Source of the DNA: a virus
DNA: 31,429 nt
Strand: one strand, 5' to 3'
IMG/VR virus record: IMGVR_UViG_3300047440_000274
Span: 1 to 31,429 of that record
The translations under genes and the position numbers were made by a program. Below the pieces are notes generated by a model, which did not search any database, was not told where the DNA came from, and worked only from the letters and a program-made list of their open reading frames with translations. Positions 1,365-12,879 of the stretch are shown here, piece after piece (position 1 is the stretch's first letter; the number at the start of each line of letters is the position of its first letter).

Positions 1365-1568
1365 TTATCGCGGCGCAAACCCAGCGAGCGCGAGCGCGTC
1401 GCGCACTTGGTCGCATGCGTGGCGAATGTCATACGCTTCATCCTCGTCAACTGCACACCCACGAAACTCACGCCACCCGGCGCGCTTCATGAACTGCGCG
1501 AGCGCTAACGCCTCATCGACGGTGAGCTCGCATGAGATAGTCACCATCGTCTGGTCAATTCTGCTCAT
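1365..1568 (-). CDS. Small hypothetical phage protein, 67 aa
   Basis: A short acidic protein; the middle contains an A/L-rich helix and the C-terminal half another helix rich in D, E and A. The ATG at 1568 overlaps the upstream gene by 14 bases. The longer frame reading from 1811 has shadow-like composition (many C, R and S) and is rejected as the start. No family recognised. Confidence 0.55.
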   Translation of the reverse strand: MSRIDQTMVTISCELTVDEALALAQFMKRAGWREFRGCAVDEDEAYDIRHACDQVRDALALAGFAPR

Positions 1569-1854
1569 GATGTTCGACCTCGAGAAGCTTAGCGGCGCGC
1601 AATTCGCGATTCGCATCGCGCATATACACCTCGAACACAAACGCGAGCTTGTTATCAAATAGCCACAACTCTCCGCGGTGCCATTTAGAATGACCGCCCC
1701 CCTCAAGTATCGCGGCCCGAATCTCTCGCCATTCGCGCGCAGTGCGTGCACATGGCACACCCGCCCGGTAATCAAAGCCGCGAATCTGTCGGCGAGTGCT
1801 TTGAGTGTCATCGCGCCGCCTAAGTAGCGCGCTGAGTTGCTGCTCGTTCCGCAT
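1555..1854 (-). CDS. Small hypothetical phage protein, 99 aa
   Basis: The product is basic at the N-terminus and has a central region with the pattern HSKWHRGELWLFDNKLAFVF, which alternates like beta strands. It overlaps the preceding gene by 35 bases, so the start is less certain than for its neighbours; ATG 1854 is the first start in the frame whose product has normal composition. No family recognised. Confidence 0.55.
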   Translation of the reverse strand: MRNEQQLSALLRRRDDTQSTRRQIRGFDYRAGVPCARTAREWREIRAAILEGGGHSKWHRGELWLFDNKLAFVFEVYMRDANRELRAAKLLEVEHHEQN

Positions 1855-5660: not shown

Positions 5661-6155
5661 TCAAAGAGCCGAGGCGCCTAACTTCTCGTGATGCTTCGGC
5701 CCGCGACGGCCGCGCGCGACTTGCTTGAGCGTGCGCGCTGGTTTGTTTGCTGGCCTCGGCCGCGCGAAGCCGCCCGTCTCTTTTTGTAGCCACTGCTCAA
5801 TCTCTTTTGCGCTCCAAAGATAACGGCCTGAGCCAATCTCTCGACGATGCGGCGCGGGTGCGTGGCCTTGCTTGACCCAATTCGAGTACGTCTCGGGATA
5901 GATGCCGATGCGCTCGCAAACTTGCTCAATCGTAATCATGCCTTGCGTCGCTTGGGCTTGCTTCTCAGCCCACTCGATGACCTGATCCGGGCGGAACATG
6001 CGAGTGCGGTCGTGGCCGACTGGCTTCGGAAAAGACAATTGCGCGAGCCAGCGATTGATAGTTGAGAAGTGCACGCCGAACATCGTGGCGACTTCGGTGA
6101 CAGTGAGAAGCGTCTTGCATGCCTGCAATCGCGCGATGACTGCTGAGAATTCCAT
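5661..6155 (-). CDS. Tandem helix-turn-helix regulator (MerR/excisionase-like fold)
   Basis: The 164-residue protein has two helix-turn-helix units in a row. Residues 16-66 contain LLTVTEVATMFGVHFSTINRW, and residues 73-126 contain a second unit of the same type (MITIEQVCERIGI..., ending in a GRYLWSAKEIEQWL wing). The tail is basic (ARGRRGPKHHEK). This layout matches AlpA/excisionase or MerR-like winged HTH proteins duplicated within one chain. It is the first gene of the early operon, divergent from the lysogeny genes, the usual place for a Cro-like or excisionase-like switch protein. GGAG lies seven bases before the ATG at 6155. Confidence 0.75.
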   Translation of the reverse strand: MEFSAVIARLQACKTLLTVTEVATMFGVHFSTINRWLAQLSFPKPVGHDRTRMFRPDQVIEWAEKQAQATQGMITIEQVCERIGIYPETYSNWVKQGHAPAPHRREIGSGRYLWSAKEIEQWLQKETGGFARPRPANKPARTLKQVARGRRGPKHHEKLGASAL

Positions 6156-6190
6156 GACAATCTCCGCTCATCTCAAAAAACGGGTCGATA

Positions 6191-6219
6191 CAAATAGTCC
6201 TCGGCTCGCTCGTTGTCAA
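6191..6219 (-). promoter_or_regulatory. Predicted early promoter (sigma70 type)
   Basis: On the minus strand a perfect -35 box TTGACA (6214-6219) is followed after exactly 17 bases by TATTTG (6191-6196), a partial -10 match. Transcription would start near 6184, about 30 bases before the ATG of the double-HTH gene. Confidence 0.6.
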
Positions 6220-6242
6220 TCAGACATTTTCCGGCGTAGTAT

Positions 6243-6269
6243 TTGAGTCGCCTTAGCGCTGTATATATT
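6243..6269 (+). promoter_or_regulatory. Possible lysogeny promoter
   Basis: A weaker plus-strand pair, TTGAGT (6243-6248) and TATATT (6264-6269), spaced by 15 bases, lies ahead of the cysteine-rich gene at 6329. The candidate operator inverted repeat starts inside it, which would suit autoregulation. Spacing is shorter than ideal. Confidence 0.35.
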
Positions 6270-6328
6270 TCGAGCATCAAAGCGAATACAGTATCAGCGT
6301 GTTTTTTTATTCACTAGGAGTGCATCAC

Positions 6329-6604
6329 ATGGCGAAGAATCTTTGTGAGACCGATGGGTGCGGTGAGGAAATCAGCGAGGGGTGTGGCTCGCACGGCGGC
6401 TTGCCGATTTGTAAGAAGTGCCGCGCCGTGCAGTATTACTGGAAAAAACAAGGACCAAAAGCATTCGAGCATCGTCGCGAGGTGCTCACCTTTTGGACGG
6501 GTCGCCTCGACTACTTGAGCACGCACGTCGGCAAGCTGGTGAAGCAAGCGAAGCAACGAGTCATCGCCGCGCGCAATGGCGCATCGAATCAACTCCATCA
6601 CTAG
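6329..6604 (+). CDS. Cysteine-rich (zinc-ribbon-like) small protein
   Basis: The 91-residue product has five cysteines in its first third (C6, C11, C19, C28, C31) and a histidine at 22. The last pair (CKKC) resembles a zinc knuckle, followed by an aromatic and basic helical tail. This fits a small metal-binding nucleic-acid-binding protein but no specific family is recognised. The start is fixed by AGGAG at 6316-6320, eight bases before ATG 6329. It opens the plus-strand lysogeny operon, 11 bases upstream of the XRE gene, so it may be a co-regulator. Confidence 0.7.
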   Translation: MAKNLCETDGCGEEISEGCGSHGGLPICKKCRAVQYYWKKQGPKAFEHRREVLTFWTGRLDYLSTHVGKLVKQAKQRVIAARNGASNQLHH

Positions 6605-6615
6605 ACGAGACCATC

Positions 6616-6990
6616 ATGACAAAAAAAACAAAGACCGCCGACATCGCGTGGCCAATTCGACCAGCCCTCGGCGATGAAATGCGACGAAAGCTTGCGACCT
6701 CCCTCACCGAACTACTGAGCGACCACAAGCTCACGCCCGCCGAATTTGCGGGAAAGGTGTTTGGACGTGACCCAAAAAATAACTCGCCGCTGAATGCCGA
6801 CGCGATTCGCAGCTATTTGAGCGGCGAAAAATTCCCCAATGAGTCGAATGCCGGGCGTCTCGCGAAAGTGCTCAAGGTGCCGCTCTCGCGCTTGTTGGCA
6901 CCGAAGGGCCCACTCATCACGCCGACACCTCGAGCGACGCGAACGAGCGACGCGAACGAGCACCGCATCGAGCACGCCGCCGCCGCTTGA
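6616..6990 (+). CDS. XRE-family HTH repressor-like protein, frameshifted by a duplication
   Basis: The 124-residue product has a helix-turn-helix domain at about residues 16-92, with DAIRSYLSGEKFPNESNAGRLAKVL as the core and the typical VPLSRLL ending. It lies in the lysogeny operon, divergent from the early operon, where the CI-type repressor is expected. After residue 106 the frame is altered by a perfect 13-bp tandem duplication (6936-6961). The resulting tail is short and alanine-rich, and ends at TGA 6988-6990. Removing one copy puts the gene in frame with a well-formed 3' extension to 7129. The ribosome site before ATG 6616 is weak (GAGA). Whether the short product is functional is unknown. 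Confidence 0.75.
   Translation: MTKKTKTADIAWPIRPALGDEMRRKLATSLTELLSDHKLTPAEFAGKVFGRDPKNNSPLNADAIRSYLSGEKFPNESNAGRLAKVLKVPLSRLLAPKGPLITPTPRATRTSDANEHRIEHAAAA
6936..6961 (+). repeat. 13-bp perfect tandem duplication inside the XRE gene
   Basis: GACGCGAACGAGC occurs twice in direct succession (6936-6948 and 6949-6961), preceded by a further partial copy CGAGC (6931-6935). Because 13 is not a multiple of three, one extra copy shifts the frame by one. Confidence 0.95.
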
Positions 6991-7129
6991 GTTGCCAAAG
7001 GACGCGCCGCCTCTCACCTTCGAGCTCAAAGACTACAAACGCGACCCACGATTTGCGACCGTGACCATCTCGGGCACTGTCGAGATCGACGTTGCAATGG
7101 CAATCTTTGCCCTAGTGCATCGCAAATAG
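6991..7129 (+). pseudogene. Displaced 3' end of the XRE gene
   Basis: In the +1 frame relative to the XRE gene, this stretch encodes PKDAPPLTFELKDYKRDPRF followed by a beta-strand-like GTVEIDVAMAIFALV and a stop at 7127-7129. The composition is that of a true protein, but no ATG or GTG with a ribosome site opens it; the only ATGs in the frame lie in an arginine-rich shadow stretch. With one 13-bp copy deleted it joins the HTH domain through a T/S/P-rich linker, giving a protein of about 166 residues. It is probably a C-terminal oligomerisation segment. Confidence 0.7.
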
Positions 7130-7192
7130 TTCACGAGACCGAATCTCTGGGCACTTATAAGTAGCAGACACCGCCCCCGGTATATAACAAAG

Positions 7193-7274
7193 GGGCAACT
7201 GCCAAGACGCGCGAAAGGAGGCGAGGCGCGCTCTAGTGCAACTCGGACCCCTCACATTCTGAGGGGTCTTTTTT
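7193..7274 (+). ncRNA. Putative small structured RNA with a Shine-Dalgarno-like loop
   Basis: A -10-like TATAAC (7183-7188) precedes the stretch and a strong terminator ends it, yet no reading frame is contained. A hairpin forms from AGA-C-GCGCG (about 7205-7213) and CGCGC-TCT (about 7226-7233) with one bulged base. Its loop displays AAAGGAGG (7214-7221), identical to a near-ideal Shine-Dalgarno sequence. It could be a regulatory RNA or just the terminated 3' end of the lysogeny transcript. No known RNA family is recognised, and the -35 box is poor. Confidence 0.35.
7246..7274 (+). terminator. Rho-independent terminator
   Basis: A perfect 9-bp stem, GACCCCTCA (7246-7254) with TGAGGGGTC (7260-7268), a 5-base loop and six T (7269-7274). 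It would end transcription coming from the lysogeny operon, separating it from the integrase. Confidence 0.9.
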
Positions 7275-7395
7275 ATGCGTCGATGGGCGACAAAAATGAG
7301 GTCTCAGTCGAGCGAACGAGCGCCGACATACTCTGAGGCATTCGCCCTTATTCGAGCGCGCGGCCAAGTGCCTGATTCGTCTAGTGGCTGATTGT

Positions 7396-7454
7396 TGGGC
7401 GGTGCATTCTGAGCGCTGTGTGAAAGCAGTGCTCTACCGCTGAGCTAACCGCCC
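7396..7454 (-). tRNA. tRNA-Val(CAC)-like element lacking the T arm
   Basis: The minus strand reads a perfect 7-bp acceptor stem (GGGCGGT with ACCGCCC), TA at positions 8-9, a perfect 4-bp D stem (GCTC/GAGC) with loop AGCGGTA containing A14, GG and A21, and an anticodon loop TTCACAC with anticodon CAC (valine). The anticodon stem has three good pairs, one G-T and one mismatch. Only about nine bases (TCAGAATGC) lie between it and the acceptor stem, so the variable loop and T arm are missing. Total length is 59 bases instead of about 75, and no CCA is encoded. It is either a decayed phage or host tRNA, an att-related fragment, or a minimal tRNA-like RNA. Confidence 0.5.
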
Positions 7455-7641
7455 GAGTCGTGCTTTGCGAGCATTCTTTTTTGCTGAAAGCCCTATTTTT
7501 ATAGCCTTTCGATGCATTCATCTCGCTCATCGACGTATCGAATTCGCCCCCTCGCCTATTTAACCTTTCTGGTCGTTTTATGCACTCGGACACTCGTCCC
7601 CTAGTTCAACCCTATACCACGGGCGGCTCGTTTGGTGTATG

Positions 7642-7706: not shown

Positions 7707-9197
7707 ATGAGATCGCAGCATTGGACCGACGAGCAAGTCGCCGACATTCCGACGCCTCGCAAGAGCCCCAAAATCTACAAGCTCACCGACGATGGATTGT
7801 ATCTGAAAGTGTACAAGACGGGCTCGCGCTCGTTCGGCTATCAGGCCACGAATGCCGCTGGCCATTATCAATTCTACCCATGGGGGCAACATGCGCCGAG
7901 CGATGCGCGCACGCCTGAGACGCTCACCTTCCACGAGGCATACGAAAAATTGCTCGCGCACAAGTTGACGCTCTTGACGCAAAAAAGCGGCCACGCACTG
8001 CCGCCGAAAGCGCTCATCGACAAGACGACCACGCTCGGCCAGCTCGCCGCCGATTACTTTCGCAAAGATGTCGAGACGCGCGACATCTCGACCGACCACA
8101 AGAATCGAATCATGCGCACGCTCACGAATTACTTTTTGAATCAGCCCGTCGCCGAGGGCGTCGGCAAATGGCGCGACGTGCTCGTCGTCAATTGCGCTCG
8201 AGGCGATGTTCACGAGCAATACACGCACTCGCTCATGAAGGTGCAAGACCGCGCCGCCAAAGGTGGCGATAGGCGCGGCAAGTGCACGCTCGCCAAAGAG
8301 TGCGACACCTTCGCGCGCGGCCTGTTTGCGTTTGCCTGCACTCGGCAACTCTTGACCATCGAGAGCGTGCCGCCGAAACTTAAAAAAGCGAATGCACCGC
8401 GCAACGTCTCGCGCTGGCTTCCCATCATCGAGATTGAGTCGCTACTTAAGGCCACGAGCCCGCAAGCGATCGCCAACAACGACGCGCGCCGTCGCAACAT
8501 GGGCGAGTATGAATTGACCCAGTGCGACGACAAATTGCTCGACACCTTCGGCGCGGTCTTTTTGCGATTGACGCTTGCGACCGGGCTGCGCATCGACTCG
8601 ATGCGACTCGCGCGCCGCGAGATGCTCAACAAGCACTCGCGCGGCATGTGGACCATTCGTCACGTGGACCTCAAAGAGACGGCCGCGCAAAAGCAAGCAC
8701 CGACTGACCACTATATTCCGCTCACGCCTTTCATCTTGCGCGAGCTCGCACGTCTCGATGACTTAAGCGGCGAGCATGACTTTTTATTTACTGAGCGCTG
8801 GATCGGCGACGGCACGCAAGTCGAGCCACGCTCTAAGAGTTGGGCGAGTCACTTGGTCGGCAAGCACGACGACGAGCTCAGCATCGACCCCGATGACCCC
8901 TGGCGCGCGCACGCACTGCGCCGCTCGCACAATGACTGGATGCAAGAGCTCGGCGTGCCGACCGAAGTCATTCATAAGGCGAGCGCGCGTATGCCGCAAG
9001 GTCTTGCAAAAACGTATCTCGTGAGCGAGATGCGCGACCACGTCGTCGATGCTTTCGAGAAGTATCACGACTTCCTCGATGCGTGCGAGCACGGCAAGGG
9101 CGAGGATTGGATGGCCGATATTCGCGGCGAGCGTCTTGCGGCACGTCGCCAAGTGAATGAAGCGCGTCGCGCGCGTCTTGGATTGCCAGCGCTCTAG
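7707..9197 (+). CDS. int: Tyrosine recombinase / phage integrase
   Basis: A full-length 496-residue integrase. Residues 1-100 resemble the arm-binding domain of DUF4102-type integrases (LTDDGLYLKVYKTGSRSFGY, then a WG.. beta hairpin). About 105-225 is the core-binding helical domain. The catalytic domain shows R295 (ATGLRIDSMRLAR), HALRR with H402 and R405, and nucleophile Tyr437 (AKTYL). The usual LGH just before the tyrosine is replaced by HKASARMPQG, a mild deviation. GGAG at 7694-7697 lies nine bases before ATG 7707. It catalyses integration of the phage into the host chromosome. It is monocistronic, with its own region upstream and terminator downstream. Confidence 0.95.
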   Translation: MRSQHWTDEQVADIPTPRKSPKIYKLTDDGLYLKVYKTGSRSFGYQATNAAGHYQFYPWGQHAPSDARTPETLTFHEAYEKLLAHKLTLLTQKSGHALPPKALIDKTTTLGQLAADYFRKDVETRDISTDHKNRIMRTLTNYFLNQPVAEGVGKWRDVLVVNCARGDVHEQYTHSLMKVQDRAAKGGDRRGKCTLAKECDTFARGLFAFACTRQLLTIESVPPKLKKANAPRNVSRWLPIIEIESLLKATSPQAIANNDARRRNMGEYELTQCDDKLLDTFGAVFLRLTLATGLRIDSMRLARREMLNKHSRGMWTIRHVDLKETAAQKQAPTDHYIPLTPFILRELARLDDLSGEHDFLFTERWIGDGTQVEPRSKSWASHLVGKHDDELSIDPDDPWRAHALRRSHNDWMQELGVPTEVIHKASARMPQGLAKTYLVSEMRDHVVDAFEKYHDFLDACEHGKGEDWMADIRGERLAARRQVNEARRARLGLPAL

Positions 9198-9262: not shown

Positions 9263-9634
9263 TTAGCGATGACGCTCATGCTCGCGCGTGAGCACGTCGA
9301 TGAGACGCGCCTCGCCCGCGTCATCGCCGAGCAAGTCGAGCGGCCGTTTGTCGTCGAGCGATGCAAGCGGCGAGCGAAGCCATAACGCCGCCTCCTCAGG
9401 CTGATAGAGCTCAGTCAAGAGCGCGACAATGCGCGCGACATTCGCGGCACTGCCCGGGTCCGGTGTGAGCATCGTCTTGCACTCCTGCGGTTTAATCGGT
9501 TCGGCGGGCGCTTGCTTCACATCGCACTTCGCAAACGCACACCACACGACATGCGTCTCGCGCACGCACGGCCGCGCGCTCGGCAGTGCGCATGCCGCAA
9601 GCATGGGCACGAGCACGAGCGCGAGCACTTTCAT
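9263..9634 (-). CDS. Lipoprotein-like leader fused to an MbcA/ParS/Xre toxin-binding-like domain
   Basis: The 123-residue product starts with a lipoprotein signal: a basic start, a hydrophobic run and the lipobox LAAC (C15). A cysteine-containing linker (C23, C32, C37, C52) follows. Residues 64-118 (ALLTELYQPEEAALWLRSPL, then RPLDLLGDDAGEARLIDVL) closely resemble the C-terminal toxin-binding domain of Xre-MbcA-ParS antitoxins, which bind RES-type toxins. An internal ATG at 9472 with AGGAG nine bases upstream (9482-9486) could give a leaderless 69-residue form of just that domain. No RES toxin is in the window. As the last late gene before the terminator, the leader could alternatively be an Rz1-like outer spanin. 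Domain assignment is by pattern only. Confidence 0.65.
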   Translation of the reverse strand: MKVLALVLVPMLAACALPSARPCVRETHVVWCAFAKCDVKQAPAEPIKPQECKTMLTPDPGSAANVARIVALLTELYQPEEAALWLRSPLASLDDKRPLDLLGDDAGEARLIDVLTREHERHR

Positions 9635-10914: not shown

Positions 10915-12879
10915 TTACGTTGCGAAGTGAATGCCGCGCGACTCTTGCCAATCAGCCAGCAAGAGCACCGCGAGACGGTCGTAGGAAATTGTTTTACCGT
11001 TGCTGAGTTGCGGACATATCTCCGCGACCTCCTCAGCAATCATGCCGAGTTGCTCTTGCGAGCCTTTCGCGAGTAAGCGATACATGATCGGCCGCAAGCG
11101 TGACAGCATCTCAGCGGCGCGCGTCGGCTTGCCGGTCTCGCGTTTGATCTTGCGCGATGAAGTTGCATTGAAGCTTGGCCCTTCTAACGGGTATGCGCAT
11201 ACAGCTAGTGAGCTATTTGTCCGATACAACAACCATTTTGTGTCACCTTGAATATAGATCCCCGAGTTTGTCCCATTTGACATCAACGACATATTGTTGG
11301 TCGCGTCATAAACGATAAGGCCGGTAAACGCGTTGACTGTGCCTTGGATGTAGTGCCCGCAATAAGTTAGGCCAGCATTGAATCCATAGACGCGCGAGGT
11401 GTCGCCTGCATAGTTAAGACTAATCGCTTGCATCTGCGCCGCGACCGCAAGCGTGCCCGCCGATGTCAGCGTCATATAATTTTTTGTTCCTACCGCGCCG
11501 ACGTACCAGCGAAAACCTAAATCGCCCGCGCTGCGATTCACGAACTCCATGAAGCCCGCCGCGCCCGCCGTGAAATTCACTTGCGTCGTGAGATATAGCG
11601 CTGCATTCACCGTGACCTTCGTTGCATTGAATGCCACCTCATCGACCACATGCGCGGTCCGGTCCACCGTCATGAAATTATTGCCTAACGAGAGCGCGTC
11701 ATTGAGTGCGCCCCATTGCAACTGCCCTGCCGTATTCGCGCGGATTCGCCACAAGCGCTCATTCGCGAGGGAGAATTTATCATTGAGAAAGAGATCGAGC
11801 GATGTCGCGGCACTCGCCGATTGTGTGATGTCCAAGCGATTAGTGCCAAACTCCACCTTCACAATCTCCATCCCGCTTCGTGTTACGCCTAGCCATTGAG
11901 TCGCCAGCGTGACTGCATCGTTTGCCGCATACGCTCGAAACTGCCCGCCCGCGACATCCGTGAACCACAAGCGGTTATCGACGGCGGCGTTTGTTTGGTT
12001 CCAATACTGGCGCGGATTGATTGACGCTAAAGTAATCGGCCCGTCTGCATTATTAAATATGTGCTTTCCTGTCCACGTCGGCGCAATCGCTTGCGATAAC
12101 GCGGGCGCACCATCTGAGCGTGTGAATGTCACCGCGACGCCATTGACTGCGGCGAGCCCGACTTCCGCAGTTGGATTTGCTGGCGCGCCGCTACCACTCG
12201 CGCCCGGTGGCCCTTGAATGCCTTGTATACCTTGCGCCCCTTGTGGAATGGTGAGGCTCAATGTCTGATTCGGTGGCACGCCGGTTATCGTTGCATCGGC
12301 GGCGCTTCCCGGCGCGCCCGTCGTGACTGAGCCAATTGCCAGCGAATTCGCTGGCCCTGCAGGTCCGACTGCGCCGACCGGCCCTTGTATACCGGCGGGA
12401 ATAGCGAGATTCAATACTTGCGCTGGCGGTGTGCCGGTTATCGTTGCGGCGGCGGCGCTTCCTGGTGCGCCAGTCGAGACGACCCCTATCGACAATTCAT
12501 TCGCCGGGCCGACTGCTCCAATCGGTCCAACGGGTCCGACTGGTCCAATCGGTCCGACTCCACCTTGCGGCCCCGTTGCGCCTGCAGGTATTCCGAAACT
12601 AATCGTCGGCGGTGATACGCCATTGTCGATGACGACCGTCGCTGGCGAACCGGCTGGCAACGTATTCACCGGGCCCGCCACGTAATCGGCACCGGCGCCT
12701 GCCGCCACAATGTCGGGCAATGCCAACCACGGCCGCACGCCGTCGCCGACTTTCATGACGGGCACACTCGCGCCCGCATTGGCGACGCCAATCTCGCCGA
12801 TGAGGAGCACCGGATTCGTGGTCGCAAAGTACGTGCTCGTCTTTGCCAAAAGTTTAACGCGAGCCAATGTCGTCTCCAT
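10915..12879 (-). CDS. Collagen-like tail fibre with C-terminal S74 self-cleaving chaperone domain
   Basis: The 654-residue fibre starts with a region typical of phage fibre N-termini (NPVLLIGEIG ... MKVGDGVRPWLALP). Collagen-like Gly-X-Y stretches lie at residues 98-126, 161-177 and 211-230, separated by two copies of a 38-residue repeat (130-167 and 181-218, each with GAPGSAA.ATITG.PP). A long beta-rich shaft follows. The C-terminal 90 residues match the peptidase S74 intramolecular chaperone: S574/S575 with K579 (SSRKIK), then MLSRLRPIMYRL and LGMIAEEVAEICPQL. In this family the domain trimerises the fibre and then cuts itself off. GAGGTGA precedes ATG 12879. It probably binds the host surface. 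Confidence 0.9.
   Translation of the reverse strand: METTLARVKLLAKTSTYFATTNPVLLIGEIGVANAGASVPVMKVGDGVRPWLALPDIVAAGAGADYVAGPVNTLPAGSPATVVIDNGVSPPTISFGIPAGATGPQGGVGPIGPVGPVGPIGAVGPANELSIGVVSTGAPGSAAAATITGTPPAQVLNLAIPAGIQGPVGAVGPAGPANSLAIGSVTTGAPGSAADATITGVPPNQTLSLTIPQGAQGIQGIQGPPGASGSGAPANPTAEVGLAAVNGVAVTFTRSDGAPALSQAIAPTWTGKHIFNNADGPITLASINPRQYWNQTNAAVDNRLWFTDVAGGQFRAYAANDAVTLATQWLGVTRSGMEIVKVEFGTNRLDITQSASAATSLDLFLNDKFSLANERLWRIRANTAGQLQWGALNDALSLGNNFMTVDRTAHVVDEVAFNATKVTVNAALYLTTQVNFTAGAAGFMEFVNRSAGDLGFRWYVGAVGTKNYMTLTSAGTLAVAAQMQAISLNYAGDTSRVYGFNAGLTYCGHYIQGTVNAFTGLIVYDATNNMSLMSNGTNSGIYIQGDTKWLLYRTNSSLAVCAYPLEGPSFNATSSRKIKRETGKPTRAAEMLSRLRPIMYRLLAKGSQEQLGMIAEEVAEICPQLSNGKTISYDRLAVLLLADWQESRGIHFAT

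Follow-up and report, generated by a model that had tools for sequence, protein, structure and literature searches.

A 13-bp tandem duplication interrupting an XRE-type regulator gene in a temperate phage, and its probable origin by replication slippage

The 31,429-base stretch of phage DNA analysed here (the window) carries an XRE/HTH regulator gene that is interrupted by a perfect tandem duplication of 13 bp. The duplication is probably a recent slippage event in the regulator of a temperate phage, by which the protein has lost its C-terminal tail and the regulator has probably been weakened or altered, and not an evolved switch. Most likely it is an ordinary mutation causing loss or alteration, and one that could potentially revert. 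The locus illustrates clearly that a single slippage event at a short microhomology can suffice for a natural temperate phage to lose its lysogeny regulator or have it altered. The affected DNA bears an intact putative attP site and an integrase gene and is therefore probably from a non-integrated phage. It also cautions that an isolated two-copy repeat should not be taken as a phase-variation switch.

The repeat tract and the interrupted reading frame

The interrupted gene, the tract and the displaced tail are located as follows.

6616..6990, + strand: XRE/HTH regulator gene truncated by the frame shift, 124 aa, HTH at about residues 18-95; weakly assigned in PHROGs to phrog_4 transcriptional repressor (E 8.9e-5)
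6931..6961, + strand: maximal perfect tract of period 13, CGAGCGACGCGAA, 31 bp, 2.4 copies, containing both copies at 6936-6961
6962..7129, + strand: C-terminal tail of the XRE gene, shifted to the +1 frame; identity to the tails of the two intact relatives, 71% and 63%

Two perfect 13-base copies had been reported in the earlier note, and direct reading of the sequence and a tract scan both confirmed them, positions 6936-6961 consisting of GACGCGAACGAGC twice with zero mismatches. The tract is laid out as CGAGC-GACGCGAA-CGAGC-GACGCGAA-CGAGC, with 8-base spacers and the CGAGC words at 6931, 6944 and 6957. A scan of the whole window for perfect tandem duplications with periods of 7-60 and a matched run of 12 or more detected this tract only. 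In sequences simulated under Markov models of order 1, 3 and 5, runs of at least 12 were found 0, 0.2 and 0.1 times per window, respectively, and the observed run of 18 was reached 0, 0 and 0.03 times. The duplication is far above chance, with approximately none expected in the window. The sequence GCGAACGAGC, also present at 7312 and 30595, was considered as a binding site and rejected, because the duplication accounts for two of its four copies and the other two lie in unrelated places.

The duplication shifts the frame of the XRE gene, leading to a stop at 6990, and about 15 unrelated residues stand in place of the tail, while the remainder continues as an open +1 frame up to 7129. Both the truncation and the clean continuation are as the earlier note described, and the length of about 166 residues that it gave for a one-copy protein agrees with the 167 aa of one intact relative. 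The frame survives with one or four copies only. As a 51-codon open frame arises in 19% of shuffles, the open +1 frame is by itself weak evidence, and it is homology that settles the identity of the tail.

Intact relatives and the origin of the duplication

A search with the tail alone identified IMG/VR records 3300047468_000036 and 3300046783_000012, and a search with the gene upstream of the regulator identified 3300046724_000277. These three records represent two distinct phages and were all that the collections searched gave. In all three the regulator is encoded by an uninterrupted ORF, of 175 aa in the first two, which are identical at the protein level, and of 167 aa in the third. The earlier note had proposed a comparison with relatives, and a full-length regulator was found in all of them, with the HTH half and the tail in a single frame in three of three records and none encoding only the short form. 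The linkers of both distinct relatives were free of the 13-bp repeat. Programmed +1 frameshifting was rejected because the relatives read the regulator in one frame throughout. Two further loci recovered via the upstream gene (L007 and L008) were chance matches inside a helicase and were discarded.

The tail motif of the relatives, PPPLELPKxAxPLxF...RFAT...AIxALxxRK, matches the out-of-frame segment of the window. The HTH half is 45% and 43% identical to those of the relatives and is less conserved than the tail, as would be expected if DNA-binding specificity diverges. Comparison of the window tail with that of the intact locus L006 gave a dN of 0.26 and a dS of 1.81 (dN/dS ~0.14), and 14, 10 and 27 differences at codon positions 1, 2 and 3, respectively, an excess at the third position. 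The low dN/dS and the third-position excess suggest that the tail was translated until recently. As the window tail is still strongly conserved, it is likely that the full-length frame is ancestral and that the break is recent, the ancestral state being read from relatives whose HTH halves share only 43-45% identity with that of the window and whose linkers are too diverged for base-by-base alignment.

The greater conservation of the tail, seen when window positions 6616-7129 were compared with L006 and L003, was accompanied by no match to a Pfam family, and the tail could possibly represent an undescribed oligomerisation or partner-binding motif. The regulator family thus combines a variable HTH domain, a conserved short tail that belongs to no recognised family and a small cysteine-motif protein encoded upstream.

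Perfect tandem duplications were also found in the relatives, but elsewhere, with periods of 9 and 15 bp that are both in frame, and the 13-bp duplication is the only frame-breaking one among the window and its relatives. Searches for a near-identical record or one-copy DNA of the window phage found neither, and a flank-pattern search of IMG/VR viral contigs for forms with one to three copies found none. No DNA similarity to the locus was detected in 50,697 phage records, nor a protein match for the intact relative, and a pattern scan of 84,980 prokaryote genomes for the tail or the upstream protein revealed no relative.

The favoured account begins with a one-unit ancestor carrying two CGAGC microhomologies 13 bp apart, between which replication slippage would have generated the second 13-bp copy. 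A single slippage would explain the duplication because the one-unit sequence already holds two CGAGC words 13 bases apart, and the observed copies lie head to tail and are bounded by the short repeat expected in the single-copy sequence. Located in the flexible linker that joins the HTH domain to the conserved short tail, the duplication would have shifted the frame, replacing the tail with unrelated residues and ending the protein at 6990 with the HTH domain whole. The resulting allele probably weakens or alters the regulator, through loss of oligomerisation or of a partner contact.

When the window was scanned for frame changes relative to the relatives, the XRE gene was the single case among real genes; the other changes flagged were antisense ORFs or gene junctions on manual inspection. 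An assembly, amplification or sequencing artefact, the true genome having one copy, is unlikely, even with a virus record that is metagenome-derived and a break that is isolated within an otherwise conserved gene. Ordinary reads are longer than the 31-bp tract, thus an extra copy would not normally arise in assembly, and the rest of the window consists of intact ORFs that tile the DNA tightly and barely overlap, which argues for a low error rate.

Genomic context and the predicted role of the regulator

The genetic context of the regulator includes the following features.

5661..6155, - strand: first gene of the leftward operon, two HTH_17 domains (excisionase/AlpA-like)
6156..6328, no strand: intergenic region from which the regulator operon and the leftward replication operon diverge, with one weak sigma-70-like site at 6213-6242
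6329..6604, + strand: upstream gene in the same operon as the XRE gene, 91 aa, with CxxxxC/CxxC motifs that resemble a zinc ribbon by eye; its counterpart in the relative G001 is 66% identical
7245..7269, + strand: terminator-like hairpin with a T-run, 3' of the XRE gene
7419..7456, - strand: 5'-half of a tRNA gene, putative attP core, tRNA-Val-like by reading of the anticodon loop, at the same place in both relatives
7707..9197, + strand: tyrosine integrase, 496 aa

The regulator is divergent from the early lytic operon and linked to the putative attP site and the integrase gene, an arrangement like that of CI. The leftward replication operon encodes the double-HTH protein, a primase zinc finger and a VapE-like helicase. 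No convincing operator repeats, and none that are conserved, were found in the divergent region 6156-6328.

In all three phages a tRNA 5'-half lies between the regulator region and the integrase gene (~6990-7030 in L019 and ~6350-6390 in L022). Because the half occupies the same position in both relatives, the three are putative attP sites, which appear to correspond to different valine-type tRNAs. In the window the tRNA half is internal and single, and the DNA was probably assembled from a non-integrated phage.

Pfam HTH models matched the regulator below cut-off. An AlphaFold2 model of the intact L006 protein, built from a two-sequence alignment (mean pLDDT 60.8), was confident for the HTH at ~18-90 (pLDDT 80-90), disordered in the linker at 93-134 (<50) and poor in the tail. 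The top Foldseek matches of this model were XRE DNA-binding domains (LexA-like, BldD, C-proteins, lambda CI and TP901-1 CI), with TM to target of 0.6-0.78 and a best E of 3.6e-3, none reaching E 0.001. The regulator is thus predicted to have an XRE/lambda-repressor HTH fold. As the break falls in the linker modelled as disordered, with the HTH domain intact upstream, the 124-aa short protein may still bind DNA.

It is plausible that the XRE gene encodes the immunity repressor, given the divergent operon, the attP site and the integrase, and, the double-HTH protein aside, the window has no other XRE candidate. A second XRE gene (5450-5851 of L012) is present in the relative G001 and could hold the immunity-repressor role. 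This second gene and a small winged-helix-like gene together occupy 5166-5851 of L012, between the first XRE gene and attP, and a counterpart is absent from window positions 7130-7418.

A TP901-1 CI protein without the last 43 of its 180 residues retained repression on a plasmid, and eight of eight TP901-1 clear mutants were altered in the promoter, the Shine-Dalgarno sequence or the first third of cI (PMC4892519). Loss of lysogeny through the truncation is possible but not implied, because the HTH domain is kept and TP901-1 CI tolerates C-terminal truncation. The earlier note's alternative proposal of a recent mutation towards virulence therefore holds in part. The full-length, repeat-free regulators of the relatives and the conserved tail support a recent mutation, whereas virulence is unproven, with the HTH domain intact, the immunity role drawn from context and the TP901-1 precedent for tolerance.

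The same precedent and the modelled HTH domain would also accommodate selection of the 124-aa form as a functional variant, such as a tail-less repressor with altered oligomerisation, and a tail-frame TTG within 5 bases after the TGA could allow the tail to be made as a separate peptide by reinitiation. Such a selected short form is nevertheless distinctly unlikely, as every relative retains the tail as part of a single protein, where it is more conserved than the HTH, and no ribosome-binding site was seen before the TTG.

Several further features of the window were recorded. A C-terminal Xre/MbcA/ParS toxin-binding domain (PF09722, E 2e-6) is fused, in the single ORF at 9263-9634 (- strand), to an N-terminus that resembles a lipoprotein, possibly Rz1; in G001 and G002 the counterparts of the two parts appear as separate ORFs. 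The gene at 1368-1811 (- strand) encodes a protein with a C-terminal DUF7706 domain (E 1e-24), and positions 12505-12559 encode a Gly-rich region of collagen-like triplets, with short in-frame repeats, within a 654-aa tail-type protein.

Phase variation and comparison with known systems

The earlier note had also suggested a phase-variable lysis-lysogeny switch, in which the copy number of the 13-mer would flip the repressor between functional and truncated forms. Slippage can add or remove tandem copies, the effect on the frame is exact and the gene's surroundings, which include attP and the integrase gene, could plausibly form an immunity region, but this proposal is very unlikely to be correct. 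There are two copies only, where contingency loci have many short units, a third copy would likewise break the frame, none of the relatives found carries the repeat, no alternative copy-number form was found in viral contigs, and selection for maintenance of the repeat has left no sign. A slow reversible switch, with the duplication forming and collapsing at the microhomology pair to give full-length or tail-less repressor and lysis- or lysogeny-biased subpopulations, is similarly hard to credit. As the related phages have the full protein without the repeat, the duplication is better explained as a chance mutation than as a built-in switch.

In the contingency loci of Neisseria and Haemophilus, short units form long arrays, and relatives retain them. 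The interrupted XRE gene resembles this simple-sequence-repeat phase variation in that copy number sets the reading frame. It differs in having two copies of a 13-mer (2.4 in the maximal tract) in one phage only, and, whereas a contingency tract would be kept in relatives with varying copy number, both distinct relatives are without the tract.

Microhomology-mediated tandem duplications (MTDs) frameshift genes and can revert (review PMC13207564), and that review attributes their description in fission yeast ssp1 to Dan et al. 2021 PNAS. The phage duplication is like the ssp1 MTDs, as the review presents them, in being a short two-copy duplication that is bounded by microhomology, shifts a coding frame and could in principle revert. 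It differs in occurring in a phage, presumably through replication slippage, and in being known from the two-copy allele alone.

The frame shift also recalls the clear-plaque cI mutants of TP901-1, in which frameshifts or stops affect a small, non-LexA-like CI encoded beside a divergent lytic promoter region (PMC4892519). However, within cI the clear mutations of TP901-1 all lie in the first third, the rest being in the promoter or the Shine-Dalgarno sequence (PMC4892519), whereas the break in the window regulator comes after the HTH domain.
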